Source: Sclerodactyla briareus (taxonomy: Eukaryota > Echinodermata > Holothuroidea > Dendrochirotida > Sclerodactylidae). Taken from it: a stretch of 64,000 bases of DNA. Below, one piece after another: positions 1-61,770 of this stretch. The notes under the pieces are model-generated. The model saw nothing but the letters and a program-made list of their open reading frames with translations, was not told the DNA's origin and did no database searches. The stretch spans positions 218,751 through 282,750 of the forward strand of contig JAODTK010002076.1 of assembly GCA_026419785.1 (NCBI GenBank), given 5' to 3'. The position numbers were made by a program, and so were the translations under genes. The first letter of the stretch is position 1. The number at the start of each line of letters is the position of its first letter.

Positions 1-790
1 ACTAAATTTCAACCTGATAGTGATCGGACAACAATTCCGGACTTACAAGCAATTTCAGACTTTGACCTCTGTTGACCTCAGATGACCTTTGACCTGACCC
101 AAAAACAATGGGGGGTTCATGTACTCATCAAGGATGAGCCCATCCTAGTTTTATCCATCCAAGTTATCATGTTTACAAGCAAAATTGGGCCAAAATATCA
201 ATTTTTCACAAATTTTCCAGTTTGGACCGAAATTCGTCCCGACCTAAACCAAAAACAATTCCTGTAAGTCCCCATAAGAAAGCTCCACTAAATTTAATCT
301 TATCAGACCAGGCGTTCTGGACTTAATCGTGTCCAACAGATCACATAACTTTTGACCTCGATGATCATTGACCTGACCCCAAAACAATAGGGATCATGTC
401 CTCATTATGGGAACCCATACACCAAGTATGAGCTTCATCCCATCCAGTGGGGTCAAGTTATCGTGTGAACGAGCTAAAATTTGCCAAATCATCAATTTTT
501 CCCAATTTTTCGATTTTTTCCCCCAAATCTGACCCCAGGTCTGCACCAAAAACAAAAGGGTTCCTGTACTCCCCATAAGAAGCTGCATACCAAATTTCAA
601 CCTGATCAGATCGAGCATTCTGAACCTATCGGTAACAAGATTTTCAGACTTTAACCTCTCTTGACCTCAGATGAACTACATCCATCCAAGTGGGGTCAAG
701 TTATCGTGTTACAAGGCTATGCCTCACACACACACACACACACACACCACTTTCATGAATGCATAGATTCCTCTGACTCTCAAGGAATCA
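1..790 (+). repeat. Family A dispersed repeat, diverged copy with (CA)n and conserved 3' end
   Basis: The stretch has more than two diverged copies of the roughly 310-bp unit seen in the array at 32-35.6 kb: the TTTGACCTC / TGACCTCAGATGACC block, 'CAAAACAATAGGG', 'TGTACTCATCA', and the 'CTGTACTCCCCATAAGAAAGC' block. It ends with a CA run at about 725-748 and then the conserved tail 'GCATAGATTCCTCTGACT' followed by 'AAGGAATCAAAAA'. The same tail closes other copies at 35.7, 15.95 and 16.4 kb. The short open frames here are not conserved as protein. The left end lies outside the window. Confidence 0.85.
725..748. repeat. (CA)n microsatellite in the family A tail
   Basis: About eleven uninterrupted CA dinucleotides. 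The same position in other family A copies (about 35.62-35.68 kb and 9.77 kb) is also CA-rich, so this microsatellite belongs to the element's 3' region. Confidence 0.9.
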
Positions 791-9544: not shown

Positions 9545-9830
9545 AAATGGATAATAACTAGGTTAATTCCATTATGGACCACAACTTTGGGAGTTACTGA
9601 CTTTGACCTCTAGAAGTCTGGTGACCTAAGATACGTTTGACCTGACCGGGCCCAACAACATATGGTTCATGTACTACTCATTGGGAACACCCATACCAAG
9701 TATTAGCTTTGATCAATCCAAATGGGGTCGAGTTATTGTGTTTACAAGCCAGGCATCACACACATACATACACAATACACAGGAACTCATAGCTTCCTTA
9801 CTTTCGTCAAGTCGACTCAGGAATAACTAG
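9545..9830 (+). repeat. Family A copy, left side of a nested insertion
   Basis: Contains the degraded TTTGACCTC / GGTGACCTAAGATACGTTTGACCTGACC block, the ATTGGGAACACCCATACCAAG block, 'GGGGTCGAGTTATTGTGTTTACAAGCC', a CA-rich stretch, and the tail 'CATAGCTTCCTTACTTTCGTCAAGT'. It is then interrupted at about 9831 by the family B element. Confidence 0.75.
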
Positions 9831-11965
9831 AGAACCAATGGTTTCATAGCTCAAACCGGACCATTTTTTCAATATGTAGTGAACTTGGTATGATGTGTGT
9901 ATTAGTATTGTACCTGGATTTCGGTTATGCTGACCTCGATGACACTGAGCAGCACTCATGAAGATACACTTCCTTTGATAGATAGGAGTACATGTTTTCA
10001 CACAATGGCCCATTAGGCGCCCTCAATTAACACCTTCACCTTGACCTTTGGGTGGTCCGAATGTCACCCAGCAGTCAATGATATTATGTCCAACTCGGGC
10101 AATGTCCATCAAAGAAGCCTAGCATTTGAGGGCCACAAACATGCGAATTGCATATTATTCTACTATTTGTGAACAAAATTGCTAGTACCCCCCTTTTTCT
10201 GGCCTTCCACCTACCATTCCTGTGGACTAGCATTATTATATTGTTACCTTATCGGACCGCCCGATGTCTGAAGGCCTTTTATTTCATGAGGCTTTTGTTT
10301 CATAAGGCCCTATTCATAACGTGCAACTTTTCGGAAAAAAGGTCCGTTAACCATAATTACCAAAAAGGTCCGATATTCATAATCAAAAAACAGGTTCTTT
10401 GCTCATAAGGTCCGATATTCATAATGACCAAAAGGCCCGTTTTTCATATTATCAAAAGGGTCTGTTCTTCATACAGAGCAGAAGGTCGATATTCATAATA
10501 GTAAAAAGGTCCGTTATTCATAATGGCGAGAAGGTTCCGTAATTCATAAAAGCGAAAGGGGACCGTTTTCATAATAGCAAAAGAGGTCCGTTATTCATAA
10601 TCGCAGAAAAGGCCCCGTTATTCTGATAGTGAAAAGGGTCTGTTATTCATAATACAAAAGAGGTCCCGTTATTCATAATCGCGAAAGGTCCTTATTCAAT
10701 AATGTGGTTTCCTTTCAAGATATACTTGCCAACAGATGATTCTATCCTATGCATGTCCCGCAAAGGATGCAAACATTAAACTGGCAACCTTTGGTCCAGT
10801 TGCGATCTCTGACAACCACGACCGGTGGTTTTGTGTTTCCCATTATGAATACCGGACCTTTTTTCCTATTATGAATATCGACCCCTTTTCCCTATTATGA
10901 ATAACGTACCTCTTTTCCTATTATGAACATCGGATCTTTTCCTTCATTAGAATATCGACTCTTCCTCCTCTCATTATGAATACGAGCCTTTTTTCCTATT
11001 ATGATAAACGGACCCTTTTCACTATTATGATAACGGACCGTTTTTGCTATTATGAATAACGGACCTTTTTTTTCATTATGAAATATCGGACCTTTTTCCT
11101 ATGAATAACGGACCTTTTTCCTATTATGAATAACGGACCCTTTTTCCTGTTCTGAATAATGGAACCTTTTTCACTATAATAATTATCGGAACAAAAAAAA
11201 AACAAAAACCGGTTTTATACTCTCTGACTCATCGGACCTCATTTGTGATTATAATATTCGGACCTTATAATAAAGACCTTTTCGGCCAATATGAATAACG
11301 GGCCCTTAGAACAAAAGGCCTTATGAATAAAGGCCTGATGACAAACGGACCGTAGAATAAAAAACTTATGACATCGGGCTGTCACCCCCTTATCATGGCA
11401 ATCTGACCGAATCTGCAGGAGAAGTATCGTTTTGCAGTTTCCACATCATGACCCATTGTGGCCGCCCTTTAAATGCCATTTGACCTTGACATTGAGTTGG
11501 TCAAAATGATGACCCCTGGGTCACTAAACATTGTGACAACTGTGGTCAAGATACATCGAAGCAGAGTATTCAAGGGTCCAAATACGTGCAATGTGCATCG
11601 GCTATTATTGTACACTTTGACCAAAATTGCCTACTATCCCCCTTTACTGACCTTTCACTCAAATTCCTGTACAGCCAAATACACAATCAATGGTTTACAC
11701 TTAGCATGATCATGGCAATCCGCCACCTAACTGCAGAAGCAGCGTTTTTCATTTCACAGTTTTCCCACATCATGACCCATTGTGCCCCGTTACTGCCATT
11801 AGACCATCATTCAGTAATCATTGTGACCAAGTTTGTTCAAGATCGATCGAAGCACGAACATTTGGTGGCCAAACAGCATAGGTAAATACATCTAGATGAT
11901 AATAGAATGACAATGCTGGGCATCACAATAGCTCCACCCGCAAGCTGGTTGAGCTAAAAATGAAA
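9831..11965 (+). mobile_element. Family B element (palindrome-ended), split by a foldback insertion
   Basis: Left end: ACTAGAGAACCAATGGTTTCATAGCTCAAAC. Right end: ACAATAGCTCCACCCGC, then AAGCTGGTTGAGCTAA. These match in style the ends of the second family B element at 13641-15355. The interior has at least two tandem units with 'ATCATGGCAATC', 'CACATCATGACCCATTGTG' and 'TTTGACCTTGACATTG'-like blocks. Unit 1 is split between 10247 and 11394 by the foldback element. Unit 2 (about 11460-11900) is uninterrupted and shows what the filled site looks like. No protein is encoded. Confidence 0.7.
10254..11387. mobile_element. Foldback-type transposable element with tandem-repeat arms
   Basis: The left arm (10254-10700) repeats roughly 28-30 bp units of the form 'AAAAGGTCCGTTATTCATAAT'. 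The right arm (10845-11387) repeats the inverse, 'ATTATGAATAACGGACC'. Between them is a unique spacer of about 150 bp. The outer ends are also inverted: GGACCGCCCGATGTC at 10254 and, on the other strand from 11387, GGGTGACAGCCCGATGTC. CCTTATC lies immediately outside both ends (10247-10253 and 11388-11394), consistent with a 7-bp target duplication. There is no transposase frame, so movement would need another element's enzyme. I do not recognise the family. Confidence 0.8.
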
Positions 11966-13264
11966 AATTCATTGAAAATTGCACAAAGGCAACCATCATG
12001 TGGTTTTAATCGCTTATGGGTACAACAAAACAAACTATATGACTTTCATGTTTAGATGTCACAATTAAATGATAAATACAAGAATAGCAGTTAATTTCAT
12101 TATCCATGGGTTTTATTAGGTATTATGATCACTGCTTCTTATTACATGCACGTGGCAGAGACAGAGACATATTGAGGGTTGCATTTGAAACATTGTAAAA
12201 TGAGTAGCATATAACAAATATACTTTAAACTCCATAAATAAACAACAACACATTCGACTGAATGTATAGATGTCACAATTCTAATAAATATAAAGAATGT
12301 CAGTTAATTATGCAGTGTGAGCAGTTTGCTCGCATGCTTCTTACTCGTATGTTACTTGACAGATAAAGGACATCTTGTGGGTGCTTTGAACAATTGTTCA
12401 AAAGGAGTACCGTATCATGTAACAAATTTCTCAAAACTAGCACAGATAAAAAAAAAAAAGAGCATGTCCTACTACCCTGGCCTATTCGTTAGTCGAGTGT
12501 TTTTAATTTACCGGTATATGTCGGTAAATAAATTTAATCTTGATTCATAGCATCCTGGGGGTGGGGGCACATATAGGAGACTATAGACCACTCACACTAA
12601 ATGCGTAACGTTCACCTAGCACTTTAGAAGCGACGGGCAATAGTCCCATTCCAAACGAAAGAAAGGTTCTATTGTACTTTTCCAAGTTATTATTTGGTAT
12701 GTTACGGGGGTTCCAAACGTTTGATTATGATATTATTGCCCTCCACCCCCATCCCCACCCTCACCAAAAAAAAAAGAAAACTCCCCCTTTTTTTTCTTCC
12801 GACTTCCACCGCGTCCCCAAAAATTTTGACCAAAAACAAAATTCACCCTCACATAATCATCCCCCTCCCCATTGTCCGTCTACGAACTTCAGCCCCCCCC
12901 TCCCACACTTCTGGCGATGGATTGACGTCGGTGCTGCTTGCTTATATGCTAATCTTGCTTGGCCTGGGACGGGTACGTGACGAGGCTCATACTATGGTAG
13001 GCATACAGGTGTTTCCCATGATGAATAACTGCCATTAAAAATATGCATGAATTGTATTCCTATTGTTTACTAGTCAGGTTCATTTGAGGTCACAAAAGGT
13101 CAGTGACTCAAAATGTGTAAACACTATCAATCCAAAATGCTTAGTCCGATGAGTTTTAATCGGTAGTCACTTATTGGAAATAGGCGTAATTAAAATACCC
13201 AATGTTTTGTATTGATACGAATCAGGGGTCATCATGTTTGGTTAAAAAATTTGATATTGAAGGA
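11966..13264. other. Gene-free stretch
   Basis: AT-rich sequence with no coding similarity. Two similar blocks at about 12045-12120 and 12260-12310 ('AGATGTCACAATT', a TAAATA word, then 'CAGTTAAT') suggest a diverged duplication. About 12735-12905 is C-rich with purine runs. A 102-codon frame there is compositional. Confidence 0.45.
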
Positions 13265-16200
13265 AAAACCAGAAGCCAAAGGCTTAGTGATTTTTGAACC
13301 TTTCTGAAAACTCTATAGCCAGACACAGGACAGATTGAGTTGTACAGTCTCTTTATGGGAAACATAACCTCTGTCAAATTTCCCCCATTTTTCCAACCAA
13401 CCAATAGGGTTTCCATACTCTTGATAAGATAGCTATTTCGAGGATTCAGACTTTGATCCCACTGGTGAACCCAAAACCGTAGGGTTCATGAACTCATCAC
13501 CAGGAACACAACCAAGTGTGAGCTTCATTCATCAGGTGGGGTCGGTTATCCATGTTTTCCCAGCAATAACTGGCCAAAAATTGACTTTTCCACAACTTTC
13601 ATATTTTCGACCAAAATTCACTCCTGACCTATACCAAAAACTAGAGCACCAATGGTGCTGTAGCTCAAACTGCACAAATGTACCGAGATGAATGTACCTA
13701 ATGGATAAAGTTCAAGATTTTGTTTCAAACTATGGCCAAGTTGTGCCCTGTTTATGACTGTTGACCACATCTTCATGTGGCCCAAAGATTTCTAGCAGTC
13801 ATAAATGTTCGACTATGGGCCGCATGCCACACAGTGACACTGGACCATGGGTCCTAAATCCCGGGCCCACCCCGAAGGTACAGCTATTTAGACCTCATTG
13901 TAACTGAACATCAGCACTGTTAAACAAAGTTGTAGGACGGAGATACATGATGTTGCAGTATTTCATATATTGGGCCCTTGGGCTCAAAATTCCCAAACAC
14001 CTCCAATGGCCTCTACCAAGCGGGGGGACTGTTACATGCTAATTGGAAGATTGAGTCAATCGAAGCTTGTGGAAGGTGCATTTCAAGTACCATTGTGTGA
14101 AAATTCCATAAATGGGCCCACATGCCCACATAGGCCTGGACCAAAATTCCTGAACCCCCAAAGGTACGGCTGTTTATAGATCCCTATGACTTAATGCCAG
14201 CACTGTGCACGAAATTCGTAAGAGGAGAATCAATTTGCGTAATTCCACATGGGGACCCTAGGGCTCCCACTGGGCCTTGGGACCTAAATTCCTGAACAAC
14301 CAGACAGTATGGCAGTTAGACCACTATTATGACTAAACATGAGCACTGTGCACAACATTTGCAGGAGAGACCAGATTTTGCAGTATTTCATATGATTGGC
14401 CCTAGGGCCAACTGAGCCTGGAGCCCAAAATCCCCGAACACCCTCCAATGGCCCTCTAACCAAAGACCATTACTTGTAACTCTGAAGATCATCATTTCAA
14501 TCTTGTTGTAGGATATGCGTTCAGTATATCCATTGTGTGAAATTTCATAAAATGGGCCCACGAGCCAAGTTGGACCTTGACCAAAAAATCCTTGAACCCC
14601 CAGATTACGGCTGTCGACCATCATTATACTGAATGTCCAGCACTGTGCACTGCATTCGTCAGAGGAGGCAGTTTTGGTGGAATCCACATGAATGGGCCCC
14701 AGGGCCCACACGGGCCCTTGGGACCTAATTCCCCTGGGCACCCTTAGGCACAGCTCGTAGACCACGCATTATCACTGAACATCAGCAAAATTGTGCCAAC
14801 AACTTTGGTAGGCGATACAAATTTTGCGGTATTTCACATAATATAATGGAACCCTAGAACCAAACTGGGCCGTGAGCCCAAACTTCCGAACACCCATATG
14901 GCCCTTCACCCAAGGACCATTACTTGTAAATTGGAAGAAATCAATTGAAATGGTGGAGGATATGCATTTCGAGTACATATTTGTGTGAAATTTCATAAAA
15001 TGGGCCTTCGGGCCCAGGTGGGACCGTGGACCGAAAATTCTGAACTCTCGAGGTCACGGCTGCTAGAACCATGATTATGACCGAACATCATCTCTGTGCA
15101 CCAAAATTTGTAGCAGAGATACATTTTTAAATTTTACACATAATTGCCTATACTGGGGGCCCCTTTTTGACCTTGACCTTCCAAAATAAACATGTCCCAT
15201 GGGTCAATAAACATTGTGTCCCAAGTTTGATCAACATCCGCCACTGAGACTGTTCGGGGTCCAAAAGGCAATTGTTAACACACTGGGATAGATAGATAGA
15301 GAGTTACATGCAGATTCCAAAAGCTTAACCAGCATAGCTGGTTTGAGCTAACAATTTTTAAGGGGGGGGCTCTCTGTACTCTCCATGAGAAAGCTCACAC
15401 CAAATTTCCATCCCGATCAACCACCATTCTGATTTAATCGTGTCCAAGGTTTTCAATAACTTTACCTCTGGTGACCCTCAATGACCTCTGACTTGACCCC
15501 AAACAATTGGGTTCATGTACTCTCATGGGGAACACACTGCAAGTTGAACTTCACCATCCAGGTGGGGTCGAGTTAGTCATGTTCACAAGTCAAATTGGCC
15601 AATTAATTGACTTTTCACCATTTTCTATCTTCGACTAAATTCACCCCTGACCTATACAAACCAATAGGGTTCCTGTACTCTCCAAAAAAAGTTACACTCC
15701 AATTTCAACTCGATCAAACCACCCATTCTGATTCATCGTGTTCACAAGGTTTTTCTGACTCTACCTTCTGGTGACCTCAATGACCTCTGACCTGACCCCA
15801 AACAAATAGGGTTTCAGTACTCATCATGGGAAGAACACTCACCAAGCATGACTTATCCATCCAGGTGAGGTCGTGTTATCGGTTCACAAGCCAGCGTCAC
15901 ATACACACAAACTGTCCATTGACTTCATAGATTCCTCTGGCCTTCTCCAAGGATCAAAAAGTGGGTTCGCCGACCTGACCTGACCTCAAAACAAAGGTTC
16001 ATGAACTCATCATGGGGAACACACATACCAATATGAGCTTCATCCATCCATGTGGGGCCGAGTTATCGTGTTCACATCCAATGGCCAATTTTTGCACTTT
16101 TCACAAATTTTATATTTTTGACCAAAATTCACTCCCCCCGAACCATACTCAATAGGTTCCTGTACTCCTCAGAGAAAGCTACACAAATCTCAAATTTGAC

Positions 16201-16440
16201 ACCCGATCAGACCAACCATCTGGACTTATCGTGTCACAAGGTTTTCAGACTTTAACCTCTGACCTGACCCAAAACAATAGGGTCTGTACTCATCCTGGGG
16301 AACACACATACCAAGTAAGAGCTTCATCCATCCAGTTTGGGGTCCGATTATCGTGTTCCCAAGCCAGCCTCACATCCAACCACTGTCATACTTCCTATAT
16401 TCCTCTGAACTTCGTCAAGGAATCAAAAAGTGGGTTCCCG
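13265..16440 (+). repeat. Family A element(s), two adjacent copies, interrupted at 13641-15355
   Basis: The 5' part (CCAGAAGCCAAAGGCTTAG, then TAGCCAGACACAGGACAGA) matches the start of the large element at 31965, so both mark the real left end of family A. The 'TATACCAAAAAC' block breaks at about 13640 and continues after 15355 with the expected 'CTGTACTCTCCATGAGAAAGC' block. Family A tails (ATTCCTCTGGCC..CAAGGATCAAAAAGTGGG and ATTCCTCTGAAC..CAAGGAATCAAAAAGTGGG) occur at about 15940-15967 and 16400-16436, so two copies lie head to tail. Confidence 0.8.
13641..15355 (+). mobile_element. Family B element made of about 445-bp tandem units, nested in family A
   Basis: The left end carries the perfect hairpin AGCACC-AAT-GGTGCT followed by GTAGCTCAAACTGC. 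The right end carries ACCAGCATAGCTGGT followed by TTGAGCTAA, so the two ends are inverted versions of one GCTCAAAC motif next to a hairpin. The interior has about three diverged units, seen from the recurrence of 'GCAGTATTTCATAT' (about 13950, 14380 and a variant at 14830) and 'CCAATGGCC' (about 14000, 14445, 14895). The last part has 'TTTGACCTTGACCTTCC' and GATA repeats. Frames within it (e.g. 14388-14765 minus) are not genes. Confidence 0.75.
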
Positions 16441-16984: not shown

Positions 16985-17305
16985 CAGCCTCACAGGCCAG
17001 CTCCCCTCCCAGGCCAGACCCCTTCCAGGCTAGATTCCTTCCAGACTGGATACCTCTAGACTGATCCCTCCCAGGCCAGAGATCTTCCAGGCTGGATCCC
17101 TCCCAGGCTGGATCCCTCCCAGGCCAGATATCTTCCAGGCTGGATTCCTCCCAGACTTGATCCATCCCAGGCCAGAGATGCTCCAGGCTGATCCATCCCA
17201 GGCCCGGAGATCTTCCAGCTGGATCCATCCCAGCCATAGATCTTCACAGGCTGGATCCCTCCCAGCCAAGCTCTTCAGGCTGGATTTCCTCCCAGCCAGA
17301 TTTCT
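16985..17305. repeat. Minisatellite of 'CCCAGGCCAGAGATCTTCCAGG'-type units
   Basis: About ten imperfect, compound units of CCCAGGCCAG, then AGATCTTCCAGGCTGGAT, then CCCTC. On the minus strand all three frames stay open through part of it and give repeats rich in W, P, G, R and L, which is expected from a stop-poor repeat and does not show coding. Confidence 0.85.
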
Positions 17306-29100: not shown

Positions 29101-32100
29101 AAAGGACAACTGCAGGATGAATATATAGCTGGAGAAAACCGAATGCGTCAGTCCCAAAACCCGAAGTTCATACCACTTTCCCGTGACAGAGTTACAGTCC
29201 TTTGAAGTTTGTGTATGTGTATTTGCCCAGATCGAAAGCATTTTAATCATGCAATATGAATTATCTCATAGTTCACAACCCTGCGAACATTCTTTGTTTC
29301 CTGCTGAAATTCACACATTAATTTCACTTCGAAAGCATTTATTCTATGGGAAAGGTTGTCTTTAAGTGATTTGTAGGTGTTCTGTGTTACTTGGCGAGGG
29401 AAATACAACAAACTTCCGCTAAATGTTGACTTATTCAACAAAATGAAACAATGAAATACATATCAATTTACTGGGTTGTCCATGTGGTGCGTCATCGTTA
29501 TTGTGCACCATTGGGATTCTCCCCAATTCTCTCATATGACCAATCTTTGAACGCCAGAAACCTTACATAGGAAAATCGTATTAAAATGGGGTTTCACAAC
29601 CTATAGATACCGTTCTCCATTCTCTACGTATAACCTCTGTTATATCCGACCTGCAGTTGCCTTTAAATGTGACAGTTTGATGGATCTTGAATGAAATTTC
29701 CCTAAAACTAATTTACACAAAACCTCCTACGGTCTAAGATGGGTGTGGACATGCGAGATACAGCCTGCCATGGCTACACTGCTACAGCCTAGCCTAAGGT
29801 ACGCAATATTTCCTCATAGGACGATCAGAATTTTCTTGCAAATTTGACTTTTGAATCTGAAACTGATTACAAATCTCAAAGACAACAATTGGGAAGAAGT
29901 AGGGGCTAGTAGAATCTGGTTCGATGACAACAGAGCAGGTTGAATTGTTTAAACTAATTCCCCCCCCCCCGCAACAAACGACTAACCATGTTTTGTTTGT
30001 AACAAGTGGTGCCAGACCCTTGCCCACTGTTTATCCAAAGTCTAGAAAGATTATCTCAGCAGCTGCTGTGAGTGGGTAATGTTTATAGATACATAAGTTA
30101 TACATATAAGTCATTAAGACACATATGGGCAATTCCAGCTAAACCGGGCACTAAAATATCAAACTATTTATTTTGCTTCACAAAGTATTCCATTATGTGA
30201 TAGACATTCAAATAAAATTCCTTAAAGTTTTGTACCAAACGGGATTTGTTTGCAATTTTGTATTATATAAACGAGAAACGCTACTTGGGGATAAATATTC
30301 CTCCAAAACATCATGCATAGCAATTGATTGGCATTTTCAATGTCGCTGTGGAGGTAATTACCATGATACTGCATAATTCAGGTTCTTACCGTGGTGTTGT
30401 TCAGGTCTGTCGTCTCCTCAGCTTGCTTGTTCTTCTCCTCTTTGCGGTCCTTACGCTTGGTCTTACTCTCGCCGTAGCCTTGGGGTCCATCTCTGGTGGT
30501 TCTTCACGATGAACTGTGTGACCGGTGGGTCAATGGAGGAACTCCATGATGGCCCGCAGGCAATGCACCGCGGGCCATTTGTGCCCTTCTTCACTTTCTG
30601 CATGTGCTGCAGAATGAGATGGGAGGTCCGTGCTCTCAGAATAACTTTTGAGCATACCAATCAAATTGTTCAACTGCATATGGCTACGACTAGGACTAAA
30701 GGTCTTTTTTGGGATGGAAAATATTTTTGTCTAGCAACTTTCCACTATCATTTGCCTCTGTTGATTGGTCAATGAATGACACACCTCATTAAAAAGAAGA
30801 AGCCCATTATCGATCAATGAATTTTAATTGATGGTGAGACCTTTTGGAAAAGCTACCACATCCATGTCAACCAAAAAGCAACCGCTAACTAGTTTGAAAT
30901 TTAACACAGACCAATAAAGTAGTAATAGTGGACAATTTCAATTATTTTGACCCCTGACACCGAACCAACTTAATGTATTCACATGTCTGACATACTCAGT
31001 TGATGGGAGAGATGACATAGCCTCACACAGCCATCACACAAAATAACAAATACATATTTACAAAACCCTTCATGATCCCTTGGAACAGAAAAATCCAAAC
31101 AAGCCCTGATGCAGGGATCGAAATAAGGGATCAGAGTCCAGAGGTTTTTTTCTTCAAAATAAAGAGCCCCTGGTTCGTGCAATCTGGCATGGGACAGGGG
31201 TCATTTTGGTGGACCAGAGACTCTGATCATTCTCAACTCATGCATTGAGGAGGACCTGGGCTTCAAATGAGAAAATCAACCGCAGAGGCTACAAAACCTA
31301 GCTCACATGCATTAGTACATACACTGAAATGTCAGTCTGCCAACGAGACATTGAACTAGTACTTGCTGCCTTCATTAGTAAGAACCACCTCAATGTGAAT
31401 TCAGGTGAAGACCCCAGGGACTATTGCCAATAGCCCCTGGTTTATACAATTTCTTCAGACTTGGGATTATCGATGTATTATAGGGGGCTAACAGCCCTCT
31501 GGCTCCAGCCCCTCCCAAAAATAGCCCCTGGTTTATACAATTTCATTTGGACCTGGGGTTATTGATGTTTTTAGGGGCTAATAGCCCCTTGACCTCCGCT
31601 TATCATGAACCCTGGATGTCCAGGCCACCAGCATGATGAACGGTCTCCACAAGGCCTTTCTTCATCTAGGTAAACTCACCAGCTTTGTCTCAGGATTTTC
31701 ACACTCTGGGCAGAGGACAAACTTTCTGATGAAGCCGTCCGTAATCTCTTGCAGCTTTGCACTGTCGTGTGAGCCGTTCACTATGTCCCGGTCATTCTTG
31801 ATATCGAACTGGTCTGCGCTCCGAGCTCACATCCAAAGAACTCAATGGATCTAAGTGACATGAACCAGAGGATATATGTGCACTTGACCAATCGATGCCT
31901 CTGAAACATGGTGATCTCATTTTGAACAATATTCATACACGTACTGAAACCCCCAACCCCCCCAAACCAGAAAGCCAAAAGGCTTAGTGATTCCTTGACT
32001 GTTTCTGTCAACCCATAGCCAGACATGACAGATGGGAGATAGTACCATCTTCCATTATAGCAACAGAACGTCTGACAAATTTCCTATCTTTACCAACCAA

Positions 32101-35100
32101 CTAATAGGGTTCCTGTACCCTTGGTAAGAAAGCTACACACTAAATTTCGAGGTTTTCAGACTTTGACCTCTGGTGACCTCAGATGACCTCTGACCGACCC
32201 CAAAACAATAGGGATCATGTACTCATCATGGGGAATACACAAACCAAGTATGAGCCTCATTCACCCCGCCCTTTACCAAAAACAATAGGGTTTATGTACT
32301 CCCCATAAGACAAATACACACCTAATTTCAACTTGATCAACCAACCATTCTGGACTTATCGTGTTTACAAGGTTTTCAGACTTTGACCTCCGGTGACCTC
32401 AGATGAACCTCTGACCTGACCCCAAAACAATAGGTTCATATACTCATCATGGGGAACAAACATACCAAGTATGAGCTTCATCCATCCAGGTGGGGTCGAG
32501 TTATCGTGTTTACAAGCCAAAATTGGCTAAAATGTCAATTTTCACAGATTTTCTATTTTTGATCAAAATTCACTCCTGACCTGAACCAAAAAACAATAGG
32601 GTTCCTGTACTCCCCATAAGAAAGCTATACACCTAATTTCAACTTGATCAACCAACCATTCTGGACTTATCGTGTTACAAGGTTTTCAGACTTTGACCTC
32701 TGGTGACCTCAGATGACCTCTGACCTGATCCCAAAACGATAGGGTTCATGTACTCATCATGGGGAACACACATACCAAGTATGAGTTTCATCCATTCGGG
32801 TGGGGTCGAATTACCGTGTTTACAAGCCAAAATTGGCCAAAATATCGAATTTTCACAAATATTCTATTTTCGACCAAAATTCACCCTGACCTGGACCAAA
32901 AACAATAGGGTTCCTGTACTCCCCATAAGAAAGCTACACACCTAATTTCAACTTGATCAGACCAACCATTCTGGACTTATCGTGTTTACAGGTTTTCAGA
33001 CTTTGACCTCTGGTGACCTCAGATGACCTCTGACCCGACCCCAAAACAATAGGTTCATGTACTCATCATGGGGAACACACATACCAAGTGTCAGCTTCAC
33101 CCATCCAGGTGGGGTCGAGTTATCGTGTTTACAAGCCAAAATTGGCCAAAATATCGAATTTTCACAAATTTTCTATTTTCGACCAAAATTCACCCTGACC
33201 TGGACCAAAAACAATAGGGTTCCTGTACTCCCCATAAGAAAGCTATACACCTAATTTCAACTTGATCAGACCAACCATTCTGGACTTATCGTGTTTACAA
33301 GGTTTTCAGACTTTGACCTCTGGTGACCTCAGATGACCTCTGACCTGACCCCAAAACAATAGGGTTCATGTACTCATCATGGGGAACACACATACCAAGT
33401 ATGAGCTTCATCCATCCAGGTGGGGTCGAGTTATCGTGTTTACAAGCCAAAATTGGCCAAAATATCGAATTTTCACAAATATTCTATTTTCGACCAAAAT
33501 TCACCCTGACCTGGACCAAAAACAATAGGGTTCCTGTACTCCCCATAAGAAAGCTATACACCTGATTTCCACTTGATCAGACCAACCATTCTGGACTTAT
33601 CGTGTTACAAGGTTTTCAGACTTTGACCTCTGGTGACCTCAGATGACCTCTGACTGACCCCAAAACAATAGGGTTCATGTATCATCATGGGGACACACAT
33701 ACCAAGTATGAGCTTCATCCATCCAGGTGGGGTCGAGTTATCGTGTTTACAAGCCAAAATTGGCCAAAATATTGAATTTTCACAAATTTTCTATTTTCGA
33801 CCAAAATTCACTCCTGACCTGAACCAAAAAACAATAGGTTCCTGTACTCCCCATAAGAAAGCTACACACCTAATTTCAACTTGATCAGACCAACCATTCT
33901 GGACTTATCGTGTTTACAAGGTTTTCAGACTTTGACCTCTGGTGACCTCAGATGACCTCTGACCCGACCCCAAAACAATAGGGTTCATGTACTCATCATG
34001 GGGACACACATACCAAGTGTCAGCTTCACCCATCCAGGTGGGGTCGAGTTATCGTGTTTACAAGCCAAATTGGCCAAAATATCGAATTTCCACAAATTTT
34101 CTATTTTCGACCAAAATTCACCCTGACCTGGACCAAAAACAATAGGGTTCCTGTACTCCCCATAAGAAAGCTATACACCTAATTTCAACTTGATCAGACC
34201 AACCATTCTGGACTTATCGTGTTTACAAGGTTTTCAGACTTTGACCTCTGGTGACCTCAGATGACCTCTGACCCGACCCCAAAACAATAGGGTTCATTAC
34301 TCATCATGGGGAACACACATACCAAGTATGAGCTTCATCCATCCAGGTGGGGTCGAGTTATCGTGTTTACAAGCCAAATTGGCCAAAATATCGAATTTCC
34401 ACAAATTTTCTATTTTCGACCAAAATTCACCCTGACCTGGACCAAAAACAATAGGTTCCTGTACTCCCCATAAGAAAGCTATACACCTGATTTCCACTTG
34501 ATCAGACCAACCATTCTGGACTTATCGTGTTTACAAGGTTTTCAGACTTTGACCCTGGTGACCTCAGATGACCTCTGACCCGACCCCAAAACAATAGGGT
34601 TCATGTACTCATCATGGGGAAACACACATACCAAGTATGAGCTTCATCCATCCAGGTGGGGTCGAGTTATCGTGTTTACAAGCCAAATTGGCCAAAATAT
34701 CGAATTTTCACAAATTTTCTATTTTCGACCAAAATTCACCCTGACCTGGACCAAAAACAATAGGTTCCTGTACTCCCCATAAGAAAGCTATACACCTAAT
34801 TTCAACTTGATCAGACCAACCATTCTGGACTTATCGTGTTTACAAGGTTTTCAGACTTTGACCTCTGGTGACCTCAGATGACCTCTGACCCGACCCCAAA
34901 ACAATAGGGTTCATTACTCATCATGGGGAACACACATACCAAGTGTCAGCTTCAAACATCACCCATCCAGGTGGGGTCGAGTTATCGTGTTTACAAGCCG
35001 AAATTGGCCAAAATATCGAATTTCCACAAATTTTCTATTTTCGACCAAAATTCACCCTGACCTGGACCAAAAACAATAGGTTCCTGTACTCCCCATAAGA

Positions 35101-38100
35101 AAGCTATACACCTAATTTCACTCGATTAGACCAACCATTCTGGACTTATCGTGTTTACAAGGTTTTCAGACTTTGACCTCTGGTGACCTCAGATGACCTC
35201 TGACCTGACCCCAAAACAATAGGGTTCATGTACTCATCATGGGGAACACACATACCAAGTATGAGCTTCATCCATCCAGGTGGGGTCGAGTTATCGTGTT
35301 TACAAGCCAAATTGGCCAAAATATCGAATTTCCACAAATTTTCTATTTTCGACCAAAATTCACTCCCGACATGAACCAAAAACAATAGGGTTCCTGTACT
35401 CCCCATAAGAAAGCTATACACCTAATTTCAACTTGATCAGACCAACCATTCTGGACTTATCGTGTTTACAAGGTTTTCAGACTTTGACCTCTGGTGACCT
35501 CAGATGACCTCTGACTGACCCCAAAACAATAGGGTTCATGTACTCATCATGGGGAAACACACATACCAAGTATGAGCCTGACCTACCCAGACCTGATCAA
35601 GTTATCGTGTTTACAAGCTGGGCGTCACACACACGCACACACAATTACACACGCACGCACACACACACACACACACCCACACACGACGTGACTGCATAGA
35701 TTCCTCTGACTTCGTCAAGGATCAAAAATTCACTGATGCAACTATGACTGGATTTTTGCAAAGATTAACCTGCTACTATTTTTTTCTGGGGGTTGATACA
35801 ACAAACACCATGTTTTTGTCTTCACTTCAGCTAAGGTTGTGTACTAAGTGACTGAAAGAAGTGAGTTGGTAGGTGTTGATGATTTTTGATGAAAGTAAGA
35901 CAACAGAACCTTTGAAGAATGTTTAGTTTTTATACAATTATACAATTGAATGTTTAACACAATTATCAGCGTTTGTTCAACTGTGACGCCACGTGTTATT
36001 GCACAATATAGATTCTCGCTAATTCCTTCTCATAATGGACCAAACTTCATGGTTCAGACCCATAGATATAGTTTTCATTCTCCAGGTATATAACGGCAGT
36101 GGTCCTTTAACTTCAAATCTTTTATCCACCCCGGTTTGACTAGCAGTGTCTACAGCCTTGTTTCTAGTTGTGAATGGTTAGCTTAATCTCTCCTTCACCC
36201 TGCTTTATGGAGCATCATATATGAAGTTTAGGTGCTAGTTTCATAGGTCTGTTGATGAACCACTCATTTGACCAGGAAGCAACAAAGCCCCACCACTCAT
36301 CCATGGCCTTGGGCTAACACAGACACCCCTTATCAAGCCTATGATCCATAATATCAGTGACGGATATTGTAACAAGCCTTCCAAAAATTTCACATACCAA
36401 TTATCTCCAGGCTATGGTAAATTACAATTAGTTAACTCACAGCAATCTTCCATCCCTTCAACATACCTTCGGTCAGCTAAACATGATAGGTATGCTCATA
36501 AAACTATTTGGAATGTTACACTCAAAAACCTTTCTATTTGTAAGTAGCTATTTCAAGCAACATGCATTTTCCCACTGCTAGGGAAAGGTCTCCATTCGAA
36601 GCAATGCACGCCTATCCACAAGGCTGGATGATTTCCTCAGGAAGAACGATCGTTAGACCGCGTGTACATGTCCATTCACTCAATTAGCATAGCACCAGCT
36701 GATCATCAGAAGTTGGCGCTCCGTTCTGCAGATCTCGATCCAAACACCGTGTTGTAGTGCACATTGACGAGCAGCCTGCCGGGCAGGCAGGCTCGTTTAA
36801 TTCTAATTATCCTGCAGCCTCCCAACTACCATGTCTGGCTGGCTGTATTTTTTCTTCCCTATAGACACACATTCTGGTGAGAGGGCTTTGCCATTATTAT
36901 TTCAAGATAACTGATATATGAACAACAAGCAGTGAAATTCGAAGGACATACAATGTTTGCAGACAATCACTTTCAATCATTAGTATATATTTCTTCATCA
37001 ATATGTATATTGTGCATGAGCTTCACTGAATACATAATGTTATTAGTAAATATGTTTACTGACTATGTGCCTAATAGTTCTTGACTCTGTAGCTGATAGG
37101 CTCATTTAAAGGACAAGACAAGACTTTAAAGGTTGCCAATGTACCAAAATGACTTGCCTTATTTAGAACTACTTCAAGCTTACCAAATCAGACCTGACTC
37201 ATTTCATATGATTCACAACTCTTAAAGTGTGATTTCAGCTAAGAGGCTTTGAGTCACTCTTTATATGTTTCTGTGTTTGACGATCTCCCAGAATGCGGAT
37301 CATCTCCTCCATGCTTGAGGTTGGCACAGCCAGCGAGATGCTGGAAAAGGACTGGAAAAGTCTACACTACTTTTGAATCAATTACCTAGAACTCCGAGAT
37401 AGTCTCTTACTTACAAGTTGGAGGTCGGCACAGAGATTTGCCAATGTCTGCCATATTGGAAATGACGGTCTTGATCCCGTTGCCACTGCCCTCCACCTGG
37501 AAATATACGTCAAAAAATAGATATGAATAAACTCATTGGTAAAGTTCAATGGTGGTGTACCAGATTCCAAGCACAGGTGAAAAGGGGACATTCGGAGGTT
37601 CAAGCACGTTGCCTTGCTGGGTCTGAACTTGAGGGGGAGCGAAGCAAAGGCCACCTATAGGCTCTACGAAGTAACGGCTGCAATGTTGTGCCTCTTGATA
37701 ACAAAACAGAGAATATAGGTATCCACTAAGGAGTATGAACGAATGAATTAATGCCAACCATTTTGCACATTTCTTGTTACTGGTATCCTCATAGAATCGT
37801 ACTATAATAAGATTGCTGGCATAGGAACGAAGAGAATATGAAGGTCACATGGTGGCTGCTGCACAGCACGTTATACTGTGCTGAGTGTTATGCACCCTGC
37901 CGAGTGCTGACAGATAAACAGTACCATTGTCGAAAGATAAATTATACTTCCATATTTTATTTTTTATGGTTCCAGCTTGTGACACGGGCAACAGTTTTGC
38001 TTGGCTTGATTACACTGCAAATCACCTCAAGATATACAAAAAGGATAGTGACAGTAACGTACTCAACTTTTGCACTCCTTCTAGGTGAAATTCAGTCCCA

Positions 38101-41100: not shown

Positions 41101-43223
41101 CAGCAGTGCTGGATGAGCTGATATTGCCACCATTTGGAAAGTGCAAGGATGTTTGGCAAACAGCTTGGTGCAAAGTCTGCCAGTGCACATCCGTTGTAAT
41201 ATAAGTATTGGTGTACCCACTACCAGGATTAGAAATAGCAAGTGCAGGATAACGAATTGCCCTCTTCTAAATTTCGATTAAGCCCATTAGTTTAATATGT
41301 AATTGTCTGGGCACACCGTTTTTTGCATTTCCCAAAGCTCAAAATTGACCCCTGATGATCTTGCCCTCGCCTCCATGAACACCCCAGGTGCCTGTTCACT
41401 CAGTGATCCTGTGCACGATTTACCTCGATTCAAAACTCTGTAAAAGTAGCATTTGAACTCAGCTGTGAACGACAGATAGATAGATAGATAGATAGACATG
41501 CAGTTCACAATAGCTCACCCAGCACGTGCTGGGATGAGCTAATAACTGCGGCCACCATTATGGAAAGTGAAAGGACGTTTGGAAACAGCTTGTGCCAAAG
41601 TCCCTCCAACAATGATACCAGACACCTGATTGAAACTTCCTGCCTAGTTCACAATGTACCACACTTAAGTGTGTGTGGAAGAGTATATACTTCTTATACA
41701 GCGCACAGAGGAATTTATTTCACTTGTAAACACAAGACATCTTGAAACAAGGCGGGTAATTAAGAGGCATGGTTGTGCCTTATGGGGTGGTGCACCAGTT
41801 TAAACCTGTTTCTGCTTTAGTTGATTCACTTATTAATCAGCTCGGGGAATGACATTAATTCCACTCTGAAAAGGAACTTCCAGGCTGTTATTTATATTAA
41901 GCCAAGCTATTTTTGATGGGGCTGGGAAACACCTGTAGGACTGTGACAGTATTTCCTGCCCTGCCAATACTGTGTTCAAGTGACTGTAACACTCCAATGC
42001 CACACCTTCGAATTGTGACGTTTTCGATGAACGAGCAAGCAAACGCAGCCAAGGTATGCATCCCTCTGCTACACCTGTAGTCATTAAACACATGCATCTG
42101 TGCAGAGCACTGAGGCATTTAGCAACTGATGAAGACTGTCCAGCTCTGGCAAGAATGGTGATCATGAAATCACCAAGGACTGTTAATTGTCACTTGATCG
42201 TTGATATCGACGCATTCCCAGTAGTGGGTTCTTGAAACTGCCTCGCTAGTCCTGCCCGTTGTTGTGATCAGTGGTTGCCGCTGTGGGGTATAAATTTATT
42301 GGTTTCAACAACCTGTTCTATACGGGTCAAAGGAGCACTTTGCTCGTTAGCAGATAAAATTGAAGAATTCTGCAGCATCGGGGGTTGGGGGGCGGCTAAT
42401 AAGTGATCACTTCAAGGTGTTTACATATAAATGGCACTGACTCAGCACCCTGTGACTGGAGGCATATAAATTAGCTATATTACATAATCATGCTTCCATG
42501 CCCCAATAACCTATGCTGTCGGGAGATAGGGATGTGATCGAGGCTTATCGGGTTGTTTAACTTCAAGAAAAGACTTCAATGATCGCCACCAAGTTTTAGG
42601 CTGCAATTAGTTATACATGGTCTGTTGCGCTGGTACGGTGTGAACGAACAGCAGGATTGCTCATCCTCCAGATATGACTGCTATGGAATGTCCACAAAAA
42701 ACCCCTCTGATTTCAATGTCGGTGGCCAGTGGAATATGTAAATCTCCAGGTTTGAGGTACTATTTTCCAAGGTTTGGAAGGAAATCTCCAGGTTTATGCA
42801 TTTGGAGGTTGGCAGGTCTGAGGTTCTCAGATGGGCCTGAATTGGGTCCCTCAACTAGTTGATGTTAACTCAGAACCCTTTACTCTGCACATGATTAGTG
42901 TAATATAAACACGCATGTATCAGTGCAAAAATTACAGTATGCAACATGCTGGCCTAGAGCAGGACCATTCAGTACTAACACAATTTATGGATTGTAACCT
43001 GGATGATAATTTAGCAATCTTGCTATATTGAAATCAACAATTCTTCAGAGACCACGCGTGATTGCGTGCACATGCCCATGATAGAATTAACAGAAAACGA
43101 TTAACCATAACTTGCCAATAGCAGTTATGAGTTACACACCTTTGCTATCAGGCGGGGCATTTTGTAGCGGTAGTACGGATCCTTGATGCTCGAGTTGACG
43201 TTGATGTTCTGGCTGTTCTCCAT
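25045..43223 (-). CDS. EIF5: Eukaryotic translation initiation factor 5 (eIF5), 8 coding exons
   Basis: eIF5 stimulates GTP hydrolysis by eIF2 on the scanning 43S/48S complex in the cytoplasm and its C-terminal domain bridges other initiation factors. Eight exons in order on the minus strand spell the family: the N-terminal [12 protein letters not shown] with the arginine finger (Arg19 here, Arg15 in human), [10 protein letters not shown], the zinc motif CPEC plus CxxC, a charged [14 protein letters not shown] linker, and the acidic [15 protein letters not shown]. The W2 domain follows with [41 protein letters not shown] and FLKWLKEA-like boxes ending in an acidic tail. Introns are GT-AG wherever the boundary could be read. 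The frame needs at least nine one-base corrections; many are beside homopolymers and are probably sequencing errors. A unitary pseudogene is the alternative, which I think less likely because all domains and splice sites persist. Confidence 0.93.
25259..26952. other. eIF5 intron 7
   Basis: About 1.7 kb. It holds a C run (25671-25682), the 45-base A tract at 26076-26120 and a G-rich tract at about 26537-26571. The frames at 25527-25835 and 25561-25923 resemble no known family. No other element was recognised. Confidence 0.6.
26076..26120 (+). repeat. Poly(A) tract of 45
   Basis: An unbroken run of 45 A, with CTTGCAAAAATG immediately before and CTTTGCAAATTG immediately after. The near-identical flanks could be a short target duplication around an insertion reduced to its tail. 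Run length in this assembly is unreliable. Confidence 0.85.
26953..27123 (-). CDS. EIF5: eIF5 coding exon 7
   Basis: Acceptor CTTTCTAG, donor AAG|GTTAGT. It encodes FTNQT..KAQ, passes a 10-base C run (27086-27095) that shifts the frame, then [19 protein letters not shown] and, after a missing base, [20 protein letters not shown] plus HEWGLK. The C run is a likely sequencing artefact. Confidence 0.9.
27574..27740 (-). CDS. EIF5: eIF5 coding exon 6 (start of the W2 domain)
   Basis: Acceptor TTTCTCTCCAG, donor CCGG|GTAAGC. It encodes [27 protein letters not shown], then after a missing base near 27660 [21 protein letters not shown], and RQSIF-like residues after another indel near 27600. This matches the family's DKEIxxEAERLD..GPLVLxEVLFxExI..QIKKYR. 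Confidence 0.9.
27943..28330 (+). repeat. tRNA-derived SINE, family 1, in eIF5 intron 5
   Basis: A box TTAGCTCAGTTGGTAGAGC at 27951-27969, B-box-like GATTGCGAGTTCGGAGCC at about 27987-28004. The body has 'GAGGTGACTTGT' and 'GAGGACACAATGAAGTGAGG'. The tail is TAAAGCGCTTTGTTGAG..AAAAAGCGCTACATAAGAAC, followed by an A/T-rich end. Body and tail match 43622-44236. It is not a functional tRNA gene: the tRNA-like head runs straight into a SINE body. Confidence 0.9.
28331..28906. other. Rest of eIF5 intron 5
   Basis: Unrecognised sequence with a tandem duplication of the 12-mer ACATCAGTGAAG near 28782-28806. A 63-codon frame at 28624-28815 has no recognised relatives. Confidence 0.4.
28907..29070 (-). 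CDS. EIF5: eIF5 coding exon 5 (acidic VEWSVDTS region)
   Basis: Acceptor CATCTCAG, donor AAG|GTAGGA. It encodes [19 protein letters not shown], then [13 protein letters not shown] and, after one missing base near 28975, [21 protein letters not shown]. One extra C near 28913 disturbs the last VK codons, since the phase-correct join to exon 6 gives FDYVKKLKAD as in relatives. Confidence 0.9.
29071..30389. other. eIF5 intron 4
   Basis: No gene seen. The block at about 29470-29660 (CATCGTTATTGTGCAC, GATTCTC, CTCATATGACC, CATAGATACC-like) resembles 35960-36110 in the same orientation and may be an old dispersed repeat; the match is modest. A C run lies at about 29959-29969. Confidence 0.4.
30390..30606 (-). 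CDS. EIF5: eIF5 coding exon 4 (second zinc half and charged linker)
   Basis: Acceptor TTCTGCAG, donor ACG|GTAAGA. It encodes [18 protein letters not shown] (second zinc pair CIAC). A frame-disturbed stretch follows corresponding to GHHGV, THR, TQFIVKN, PPEMDP, and then a clean [19 protein letters not shown] and [11 protein letters not shown]. At least three one-base indels lie between about 30550 and 30480. The basic-acidic linker is typical of the segment between the zinc domain and the W2 domain. Confidence 0.88.
30607..31679. other. eIF5 intron 3, with small inverted and tandem repeats
   Basis: GATCAGAGTCCAGAGG at about 31129 and GAGACTCTGATCA at about 31219 form an inverted pair about 90 bp apart. 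At 31430-31595 two copies of 'TAGCCCCTGGTTTATACAATTTC' words about 95 bp apart form a short tandem duplication. No gene was found. Confidence 0.55.
31680..31850 (-). CDS. EIF5: eIF5 coding exon 3 (first zinc half, CPEC)
   Basis: Acceptor ...CACTTAG, donor CTG|GTGAGT. The exon encodes [11 protein letters not shown], then, one base off, [19 protein letters not shown], then [20 protein letters not shown]. One base is missing near 31845 (between Tyr-Pro and Glu-Phe-Phe) and one near 31808 (after GAQT), both at short C runs. CPEC supplies the first pair of zinc ligands. Confidence 0.92.
35171..35211 (-). promoter_or_regulatory. Candidate nuclear-receptor half-site cluster (representative of 12)
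   Basis: Four TGACCT hexamers (AGGTCA on the minus strand) lie in a row: the first and second are separated by CTGG, the second and third by CAGA, the third and fourth by a single C. That gives DR4, DR4, DR1 spacing. Nuclear receptors of the RXR-partner group are known to read such direct repeats. Whether any protein binds here is inference; the cluster recurs in nearly every unit between 32161 and 35520. Confidence 0.35.
35622..35684. repeat. (AC)n-rich microsatellite at the family A tail
   Basis: A long, interrupted run of AC/GC dinucleotides just before the conserved family A tail, as in the copy at 725-748. Confidence 0.85.
37415..37496 (-). CDS. EIF5: eIF5 coding exon 2
   Basis: An 82-base exon between ...CCAG (AG at 37498-37497) and GTAAGTAAG. 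It encodes [19 protein letters not shown] and then KSLCRPPT with one base left over, matching the family's [29 protein letters not shown]. No indels. The leftover T pairs with AT at the start of the next exon to give Tyr. Confidence 0.93.
40773..41605 (+). repeat. 428-bp tandem duplication ending in GATA repeats and a palindrome
   Basis: Copy 1 starts at 40773 and copy 2 at 41201 with 'ATAAGTATTGGTG'. Shared landmarks: GCAGGATAACGAATT, TTTCGATTAAGCC, GCTCAAAATTGACCCCTG, CCATGAACACCCCAGGTGCC, 'ACTCTGTAAAAGTAGCATTTGAA', GATA repeats, and AATAGCT..CCCAGCA..TGCTGG..ATGAGCT. The GCTCA/TGAGCT hairpin resembles the right end of family B, so the unit is probably a truncated family B tail duplicated in place. 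Confidence 0.88.
41509..41546. repeat. Hairpin palindrome, family B-type end
   Basis: TAGCTCACCCAGCAC is followed by GTGCTGGGATGAGCTAA, a near-perfect stem of about 15 bp with almost no loop. The equivalent in copy 1 (about 41087-41125) is more eroded. Confidence 0.85.
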
Positions 43224-60929: not shown

Positions 60930-61770
60930 GTCGAAAAGTTGAAGTAGGTTGAGGTAGGTACAAGTAGTTGCACAGACGAACGAAATTTCCTTACGTCAGC
61001 ACCCTAAATGTTTATTGCGAGAATATAGGAAATGGTGAAATCATCGGTGTGCTAGAGACTGTTTCACGGATGTCCTCCCGTCACACCGAACATTACTGCG
61101 TGTCTGTGTTAAGAAAGTTTTTAGGCGTCAGTGTGATTGATTAATGGTGTGTTGCAACAGGACCGTGAGTCTGGTTGCAACAACAAAGAAAGGACCCCAA
61201 GGTCACATTAAATCATGACGGTATGGTCGAAGGAGGTCAAAAAGGTATCCGAAGGAGGTCAAAGTAGGTCATTAGATATAGTTTGAACAGAAGAACGAAA
61301 TTCTTCTTTACGCCAACCCACCTATAAATATTTCGTTGGTTCTCTGCCGAGATATGGAAAGATACTTTTCAGTAGTGACCTGATTGAGGCATGATATGTG
61401 ATCTGAAAACCAGTCAAGAGTAGAGTGCTTTCCTCTTCATATATGGAGCCCACACACAAGGTACCAATTTCAATCTACTTCCGTTCACCAAGTTATGGAC
61501 GGAAATGATTTGATTGACCCGCGACTTGCCCCGCCCTTCCAATGATATAAAAAAAAAAACACAATACAGGTTTTCCCCTACATGGGGAAAAACCTATACA
61601 ACTATTTTAAACATGTACGGCTTGCCGTCTTTATTCATCGTGACTGGGACACAACCACGCACGCACACACGAAGTCTACACACACACACGCACACCACAG
61701 CGATGCGTGATCGCATAGATTCCTTTTGCTTGGCCGAGGGAAGTGCAAAATTACAAACGTTGGAATATGT
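60930..61770 (+). repeat. Relative of family A with AGGTCA direct repeats and the same tail
   Basis: Two diverged units (60940-61080 and 61225-61370; shared 'GAACGAAATT..CTTACG', ATATTTCGTTGGTT/ATGTTTATTGCGAGAATAT) contain AGGAGGTCA and AGGTCAAAGTAGGTCA. A CA-rich tract then leads to GATCGCATAGATTCC..TTGGC near 61710-61730, like the family A tail. Confidence 0.65.

Follow-up and report, generated by a model that had tools for sequence, protein, structure and literature searches.

A TGACCT ladder in the tandem core of a HINE-like element within an eIF5 intron of Sclerodactyla briareus

Our analysis of a 64,000-nucleotide window from the holothuroid Sclerodactyla briareus (assembly GCA_026419785.1, contig JAODTK010002076.1, positions 218,751 to 282,750 of the forward strand) places a tandem array bearing ladders of TGACCT hexamers in intron 2 of the gene for the translation factor eIF5, and suggests that this array forms the core of an inserted HINE, a type of non-autonomous Helentron. 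With a probability of roughly 0.7, we assign the element to a new HINE family, without claiming that the family is absent from print, in which the ladder of the monomer is chiefly inherited and drifts in each copy. In the mechanism that we propose, a 310-bp dimeric unit bearing the ladder would have been multiplied inside the element and then carried around the genome with it; from the end structures we infer that the spread took place, as in other HINEs, through rolling-circle transposition. The ladder itself would descend from an old monomer, in which it may have originated by short internal duplication, and after insertion it would drift like the rest of the unit. Judged from its sequence, the monomer contains a good candidate receptor element, which probably travels as a passenger.

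The element is 3.8 kb long (31966..35728, canonical direction minus), with limits given by ends that are common to other loci, and by its end structures it is of the non-autonomous rolling-circle type. HINEs as published are built of subterminal inverted repeats, a 5' inverted repeat, a microsatellite, a tandem core, a 3' palindrome and an end T-run (PMC7492417, PMC4067079), and the window element has all of these modules in common with the oyster Cg_HINE (PMC7492417) and with DINE-1 (PMC4067079). Read in the canonical direction, the order is a T-run, GATTCCTTGAC, a complementary inverted repeat, a GT microsatellite, the core, GTCAAGGAATCA and the palindrome AAGCCTTTTGGCTT. The 5' end comprises the T-run and a subterminal repeat GATCCTTGAC (35714..35728, minus strand) that is one base short of the family form GATTCCTTGAC, and T-runs are found at this end in many copies. 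Next to it lies a short inverted repeat complementary to the subterminal repeat (35699..35710, minus strand), assigned from the fold and the coordinates; this repeat, GTCAGAGGAATC, adjoins GATTCCTTGAC and is predicted to form a hairpin. Between the end modules are a CA/GT microsatellite (35626..35684, strand not assigned) and the tandem core (32093..35619, plus strand), which consists of a partial B, a cut A, another partial B, complete A+B units of 310 bp and a last A that is cut off at profile position 142, A and B being the two halves of the dimer, about 70% alike. At the other end, the 3' subterminal repeat GTCAAGGAATCA (31988..31999, minus strand; the plus strand reads TGATTCCTTGAC) is followed by the palindrome (31972..31985, minus strand), giving subterminal inverted repeats at both ends (GATTCCTTGAC / GTCAAGGAATC). 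What distinguishes the window element from HINE and DINE-1 is the dimeric 310-bp unit with its receptor-like ladder, and its microsatellite is a dinucleotide whereas those reported for the oyster element are mostly of 4-base motifs (PMC7492417). The old bivalve monomers BIV160, Cg170 and CvA (Pearl), of about 160-170 bp and described as having two conserved motifs and occurring in satellites as well as Helitron-class elements (PMC5139131), resemble the unit by description, not by sequence comparison.

The initial annotation called the array a satellite, a label that we replace: the repeats form the core of a transposon that is dispersed and has defined ends. Classical satellite DNA was rejected on the grounds that the tandem repeat (32259-35618, period 309, 95% matches) comprises only 10.8 copies and is bounded by element ends common to other loci, where the flanks of the core recur as well. 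Across the window and 21 fetched stretches, we found 16 matches to the left end and 21 to the right, the latter list extending to E 1 and including weak matches. In 16 of the 21 fetched stretches the core stops at profile position 138-143; of the other five, four are truncated because the stretch itself ends there and one (C28) stops elsewhere. A cut first A is present in 13 of the 21. In one stretch (L031, C2453:86071-89325), two copies lie head to tail, with the right end of one directly against the left end of the other. Helitron_like_N domains were detected on two contigs, though matching family ends were not seen around either domain in the regions covered (98001-114000 of C2413 and 122001-132000 of C2926). 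On C2413, a family copy (104755-108016) starts approximately 1.2 kb beyond the Helitron_like_N reading frame (L101 4597-5575, C2413:102597-103575), which offers a possible lead to an autonomous partner.

Twelve TGACCT ladders, one in each A half, lie on the plus strand at 32164..35517 (first start 32164, last start 35485), and as eIF5 is encoded on the minus strand they read there as AGGTCA direct repeats (DR). The initial annotation recognized in them a DR4-DR4-DR1 array of nuclear-receptor half-sites, and this response-element grammar, that is, AGGTCA-type half-sites at accepted spacings, holds. It also stated that nearly every unit has four TGACCT hexamers with spacers of 4, 4 and 1 bases; the spacing is real, but the frequency was overstated, with four exact hexamers in only 3 of the 12 ladders (32694, 33314 and 35174), four TGACCY hexamers at this spacing in 7, and three exact leading hexamers with the 4-4 spacing in 10. 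The fourth hexamer deviates to TGACCC in four ladders and to TGACCG or TGACTG in three, and an insertion or deletion (indel) shifts two of the twelve out of register. Within the 310-bp dimer, the hexamers follow one another in steps of 10-10-7 bp. The segment 32161-35620 holds 48 TGACCT/AGGTCA hexamers, compared with 2.5 +/- 1.6 in 100 dinucleotide shuffles, and the remainder of the window holds 64, compared with 32.9 +/- 5.9 when shuffled. The possibility that the unit encodes a ribozyme or other structured RNA was rejected, with zero Rfam matches at E up to 1 across 31900-35800.

The ladder is dispersed well beyond this array. In the assembly (319 Mb, 3,171 contigs), the exact 4-4-1 pattern occurs at 910 places and a backward control pattern at none; the exact pattern is likewise absent from viral contigs. 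Fourteen of 16 further exact ladders that were fetched lie within family A, and seven family loci, weak matches included, were found in 40 sampled 3-kb stretches, a sample that is not strictly random as many contigs already hold the repeat elsewhere. The window itself contains older copies, which the initial annotation described as keeping similar spacing, a description that fits them to differing degrees. The first (56..717, plus strand) retains one exact 4-4-1 ladder at 63-95; the second (9599..9751, plus strand) is degenerate, its exact hexamers near 9604 standing at gaps of 12 and 10; and in the copies at 15369..16438 (plus strand) ladders are partly kept, those at 15460-15800 having gaps of 3 and 1 or degenerate hexamers. 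Older remnants of the family also occupy 12979..13646, on both strands. Such abundance, both of exact ladders and of family loci in the sampled stretches, would suit a sink in which many copies jointly titrate receptors. We regard this as very improbable, given that it requires open chromatin and binding, both hypothetical here, and that older ladders are often degenerate.

The presence of about a dozen repeat units in intron 2 of eIF5 was confirmed, the array sitting between coding exons 2 and 3. The coding exons, all on the minus strand and with approximate edges, are located at 43137..43205 (exon 1), 37416..37493 (exon 2) and 31683..31840 (exon 3), the last with a one-base frameshift inside that is probably an assembly error. 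The joined peptide matches eIF5 among solved structures (best E 3.3e-47), and a Pfam search with three eIF5 pieces, in two-exon or one-exon form, returned the IF5 domain in two and none in one. Because of the frameshift in exon 3, some of the single-base losses in the ladders may be assembly errors as well. Only its position, in the intron between two coding exons, speaks for a co-option of the insertion as an enhancer of eIF5; the same element is present at many other places, and the units of the array were no more conserved than others in the pooled test described below. We give this the least credence of the readings weighed here. The eIF5 location is one insertion among very many of the element.

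The initial annotation had proposed comparing the decay of the ladder with that of neutral positions. At the level of sequence, we find that half-sites change about as fast as other positions overall and that the spacing is not protected from indels. The comparison used 120 full units from 24 sequence sets (the window, the 40 stretches, which had fixed coordinates, and further genomic loci); the 16 loci chosen for exact ladders were excluded from the rate tests, and eight units fetched as exact, four of them full units, were left out while their neighbors were kept. Substitutions were counted at 116/2813 half-site positions, 45/1046 spacer positions and 489/10741 of the remaining positions of the A half, CpG excluded. 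For units of all ages, the half-site to rest ratio, standardized for base make-up, was 0.90 (0.65-1.17) and the half-site to spacer ratio 0.99 (0.65-1.80); for the former, 0.88 (0.66-1.11) had been obtained earlier with 114 units. Ladders were free of indels in 67 of the 120 units, and 133 of 230 other 33-column windows were equal or worse. The cut first A, which has been propagated in many elements, lacks two or three good half-sites: of 15 first-A ladders, 9 have TGAACT at site 1 and 9 have TAACCT at site 2. Taken together, the pooled rates, the indels and these half-site losses argue against every copy having to be bound by a receptor, and the ladder is without overall constraint after insertion. 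A large enhancer and a decoy sink, both suggested in the initial annotation, thus have only the motif in their favor, and its third suggestion, an accident of the repeat's sequence, comes closest to our reading.

Several observations nevertheless weigh against an inherited ladder that simply drifts. When units were binned by the divergence of their B half (young 66, middle 32, oldest 22), the half-site to rest ratio was 2.18 (1.33-3.86) in young units, an excess due in part to a T-to-C substitution that 14 of 114 units have in common at their fourth half-site, 0.58 (0.23-1.00) in middle units and 0.69 (0.40-1.10) in the oldest, and in the oldest 22 units half-sites changed more slowly than spacers (0.55, 0.35-0.90). 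Binning by A-half divergence, which yielded 5.04 for the youngest and 0.44 (0.25-0.73) for the oldest units, was rejected in favor of the B half because regression to the mean is built into it. A second tandem repeat of approximately 300 bp, repeat X, found in stretches L054 and L055, carries the same 4-4-1 ladder as A, extended to 4-4-1-4-1. Moreover, in a pair count that covered 180,140 bases, made up of the 40 stretches and the part of the window outside the element, TGACCT was the top-ranked non-simple hexamer in same-strand pairing, with 4 pairs at spacer 1 and 8 at spacer 4; once A and X were masked, 2 pairs at spacer 1 (rank 5) and 3 pairs at spacer 4 (rank 11) were left. Finally, the status of the element is read from its sequence, and its transposition and autonomous partner are putative.

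Receptor use finds some support in the oldest units and in repeat X. Binding of the ladder by host receptors in the germ line or early embryo might make chromatin accessible for the element's spread, with selection acting on source copies while dead copies drift. In addition to these two observations, such use is favored by the ends: among eight right ends recovered by their own profile, all five with E <0.001 have a TGACCY pair on their inner side at no more than 700 bp (two of them from the same stretch), and one of the three weaker right ends has an RGGTCA pair. Six left ends were also recovered, but only one of the four with E <0.01 has a pair inside. Receptors themselves are encoded in the genome, where a family search, which gives a lower bound, found at least seven pieces of nuclear-receptor DNA-binding domains in five places; the best solved-structure matches identify one piece as NR6A1-like and one as PPAR-like, and we read two others as NR5A-like and NR1-like. 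RXR was not among the pieces from this lower-bound search, and no dedicated RXR search was completed. Precedents exist in the occupancy of B1 repeats by NR5A2 in mouse embryos (PMC10709309) and in the binding of DR0 and DR4 by amphioxus NR7 with RXR (PMC9535869). Set against the lack of overall constraint or indel protection in pooled units and the propagation of a first unit without two or three good half-sites, we consider receptor use unlikely. A more elaborate version, in which a rolling-circle clan has kept, and perhaps reached twice (in A and in X), a DR4-DR4-DR1 ladder because binding by RXR-type heterodimers opens germ-line or embryonic chromatin to it, scattering very many composite receptor sites through the genome, appears less likely still.

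Repeat X has no detected similarity to family A, although their ladders may share an origin. The family A profile matches nothing of X in L054, and in L055 only neighboring monomers match; by eye, L055 seems to be one element holding both A-like monomers and X. The window contains a copy of X with TGACCT pairs (61223..61320, minus strand, profile match E 7.6e-9), and other X units in L054 are degenerate. Further repeats in L061 (at 1524), L070 (2375-2991) and L092 (at 16) contain paired TGACCT hexamers, in several cases 4 bases apart, with a CCAAGTTT-type motif after them, and by eye are possibly remote relatives of the family monomer. Stretch L068 holds three TGACCTTTGACCY pairs (DR1) within 3 kb (1207, 2664 and 2962), outside A and X.

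Transposons that multiply receptor motifs are known from other lineages. Alu, with DR2 and other response elements, is likewise a transposon family that multiplies direct-repeat receptor motifs; many Alu DR2s arise by CpG deamination in a near-motif, whereas the ladder here is in the family consensus, and recruitment of RAR is shown for several Alus where receptor use here is a matter of motif (PMC1785376). B1 repeats also place a receptor motif in an abundant transposon, but they are RNA-derived, binding by NR5A2 is shown for them, and the motif as described is not a 4-4-1 ladder (PMC10709309). Should receptors bind the ladder, composite hormone-response elements would be spreading by way of a rolling-circle transposon, a part more familiar from retroelements such as Alu; should they not, the family would caution that a perfect receptor grammar can spread as a passenger and dominate motif scans.

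Elsewhere in the window, two minisatellites with 25/26-bp units that are reverse complements face each other (10409-10703 and 10836-11171) and may be the tandem-repeat ends of another transposon. A G+C-rich minisatellite with units of 16, 32 and 48 bp lies at 17004-17300.

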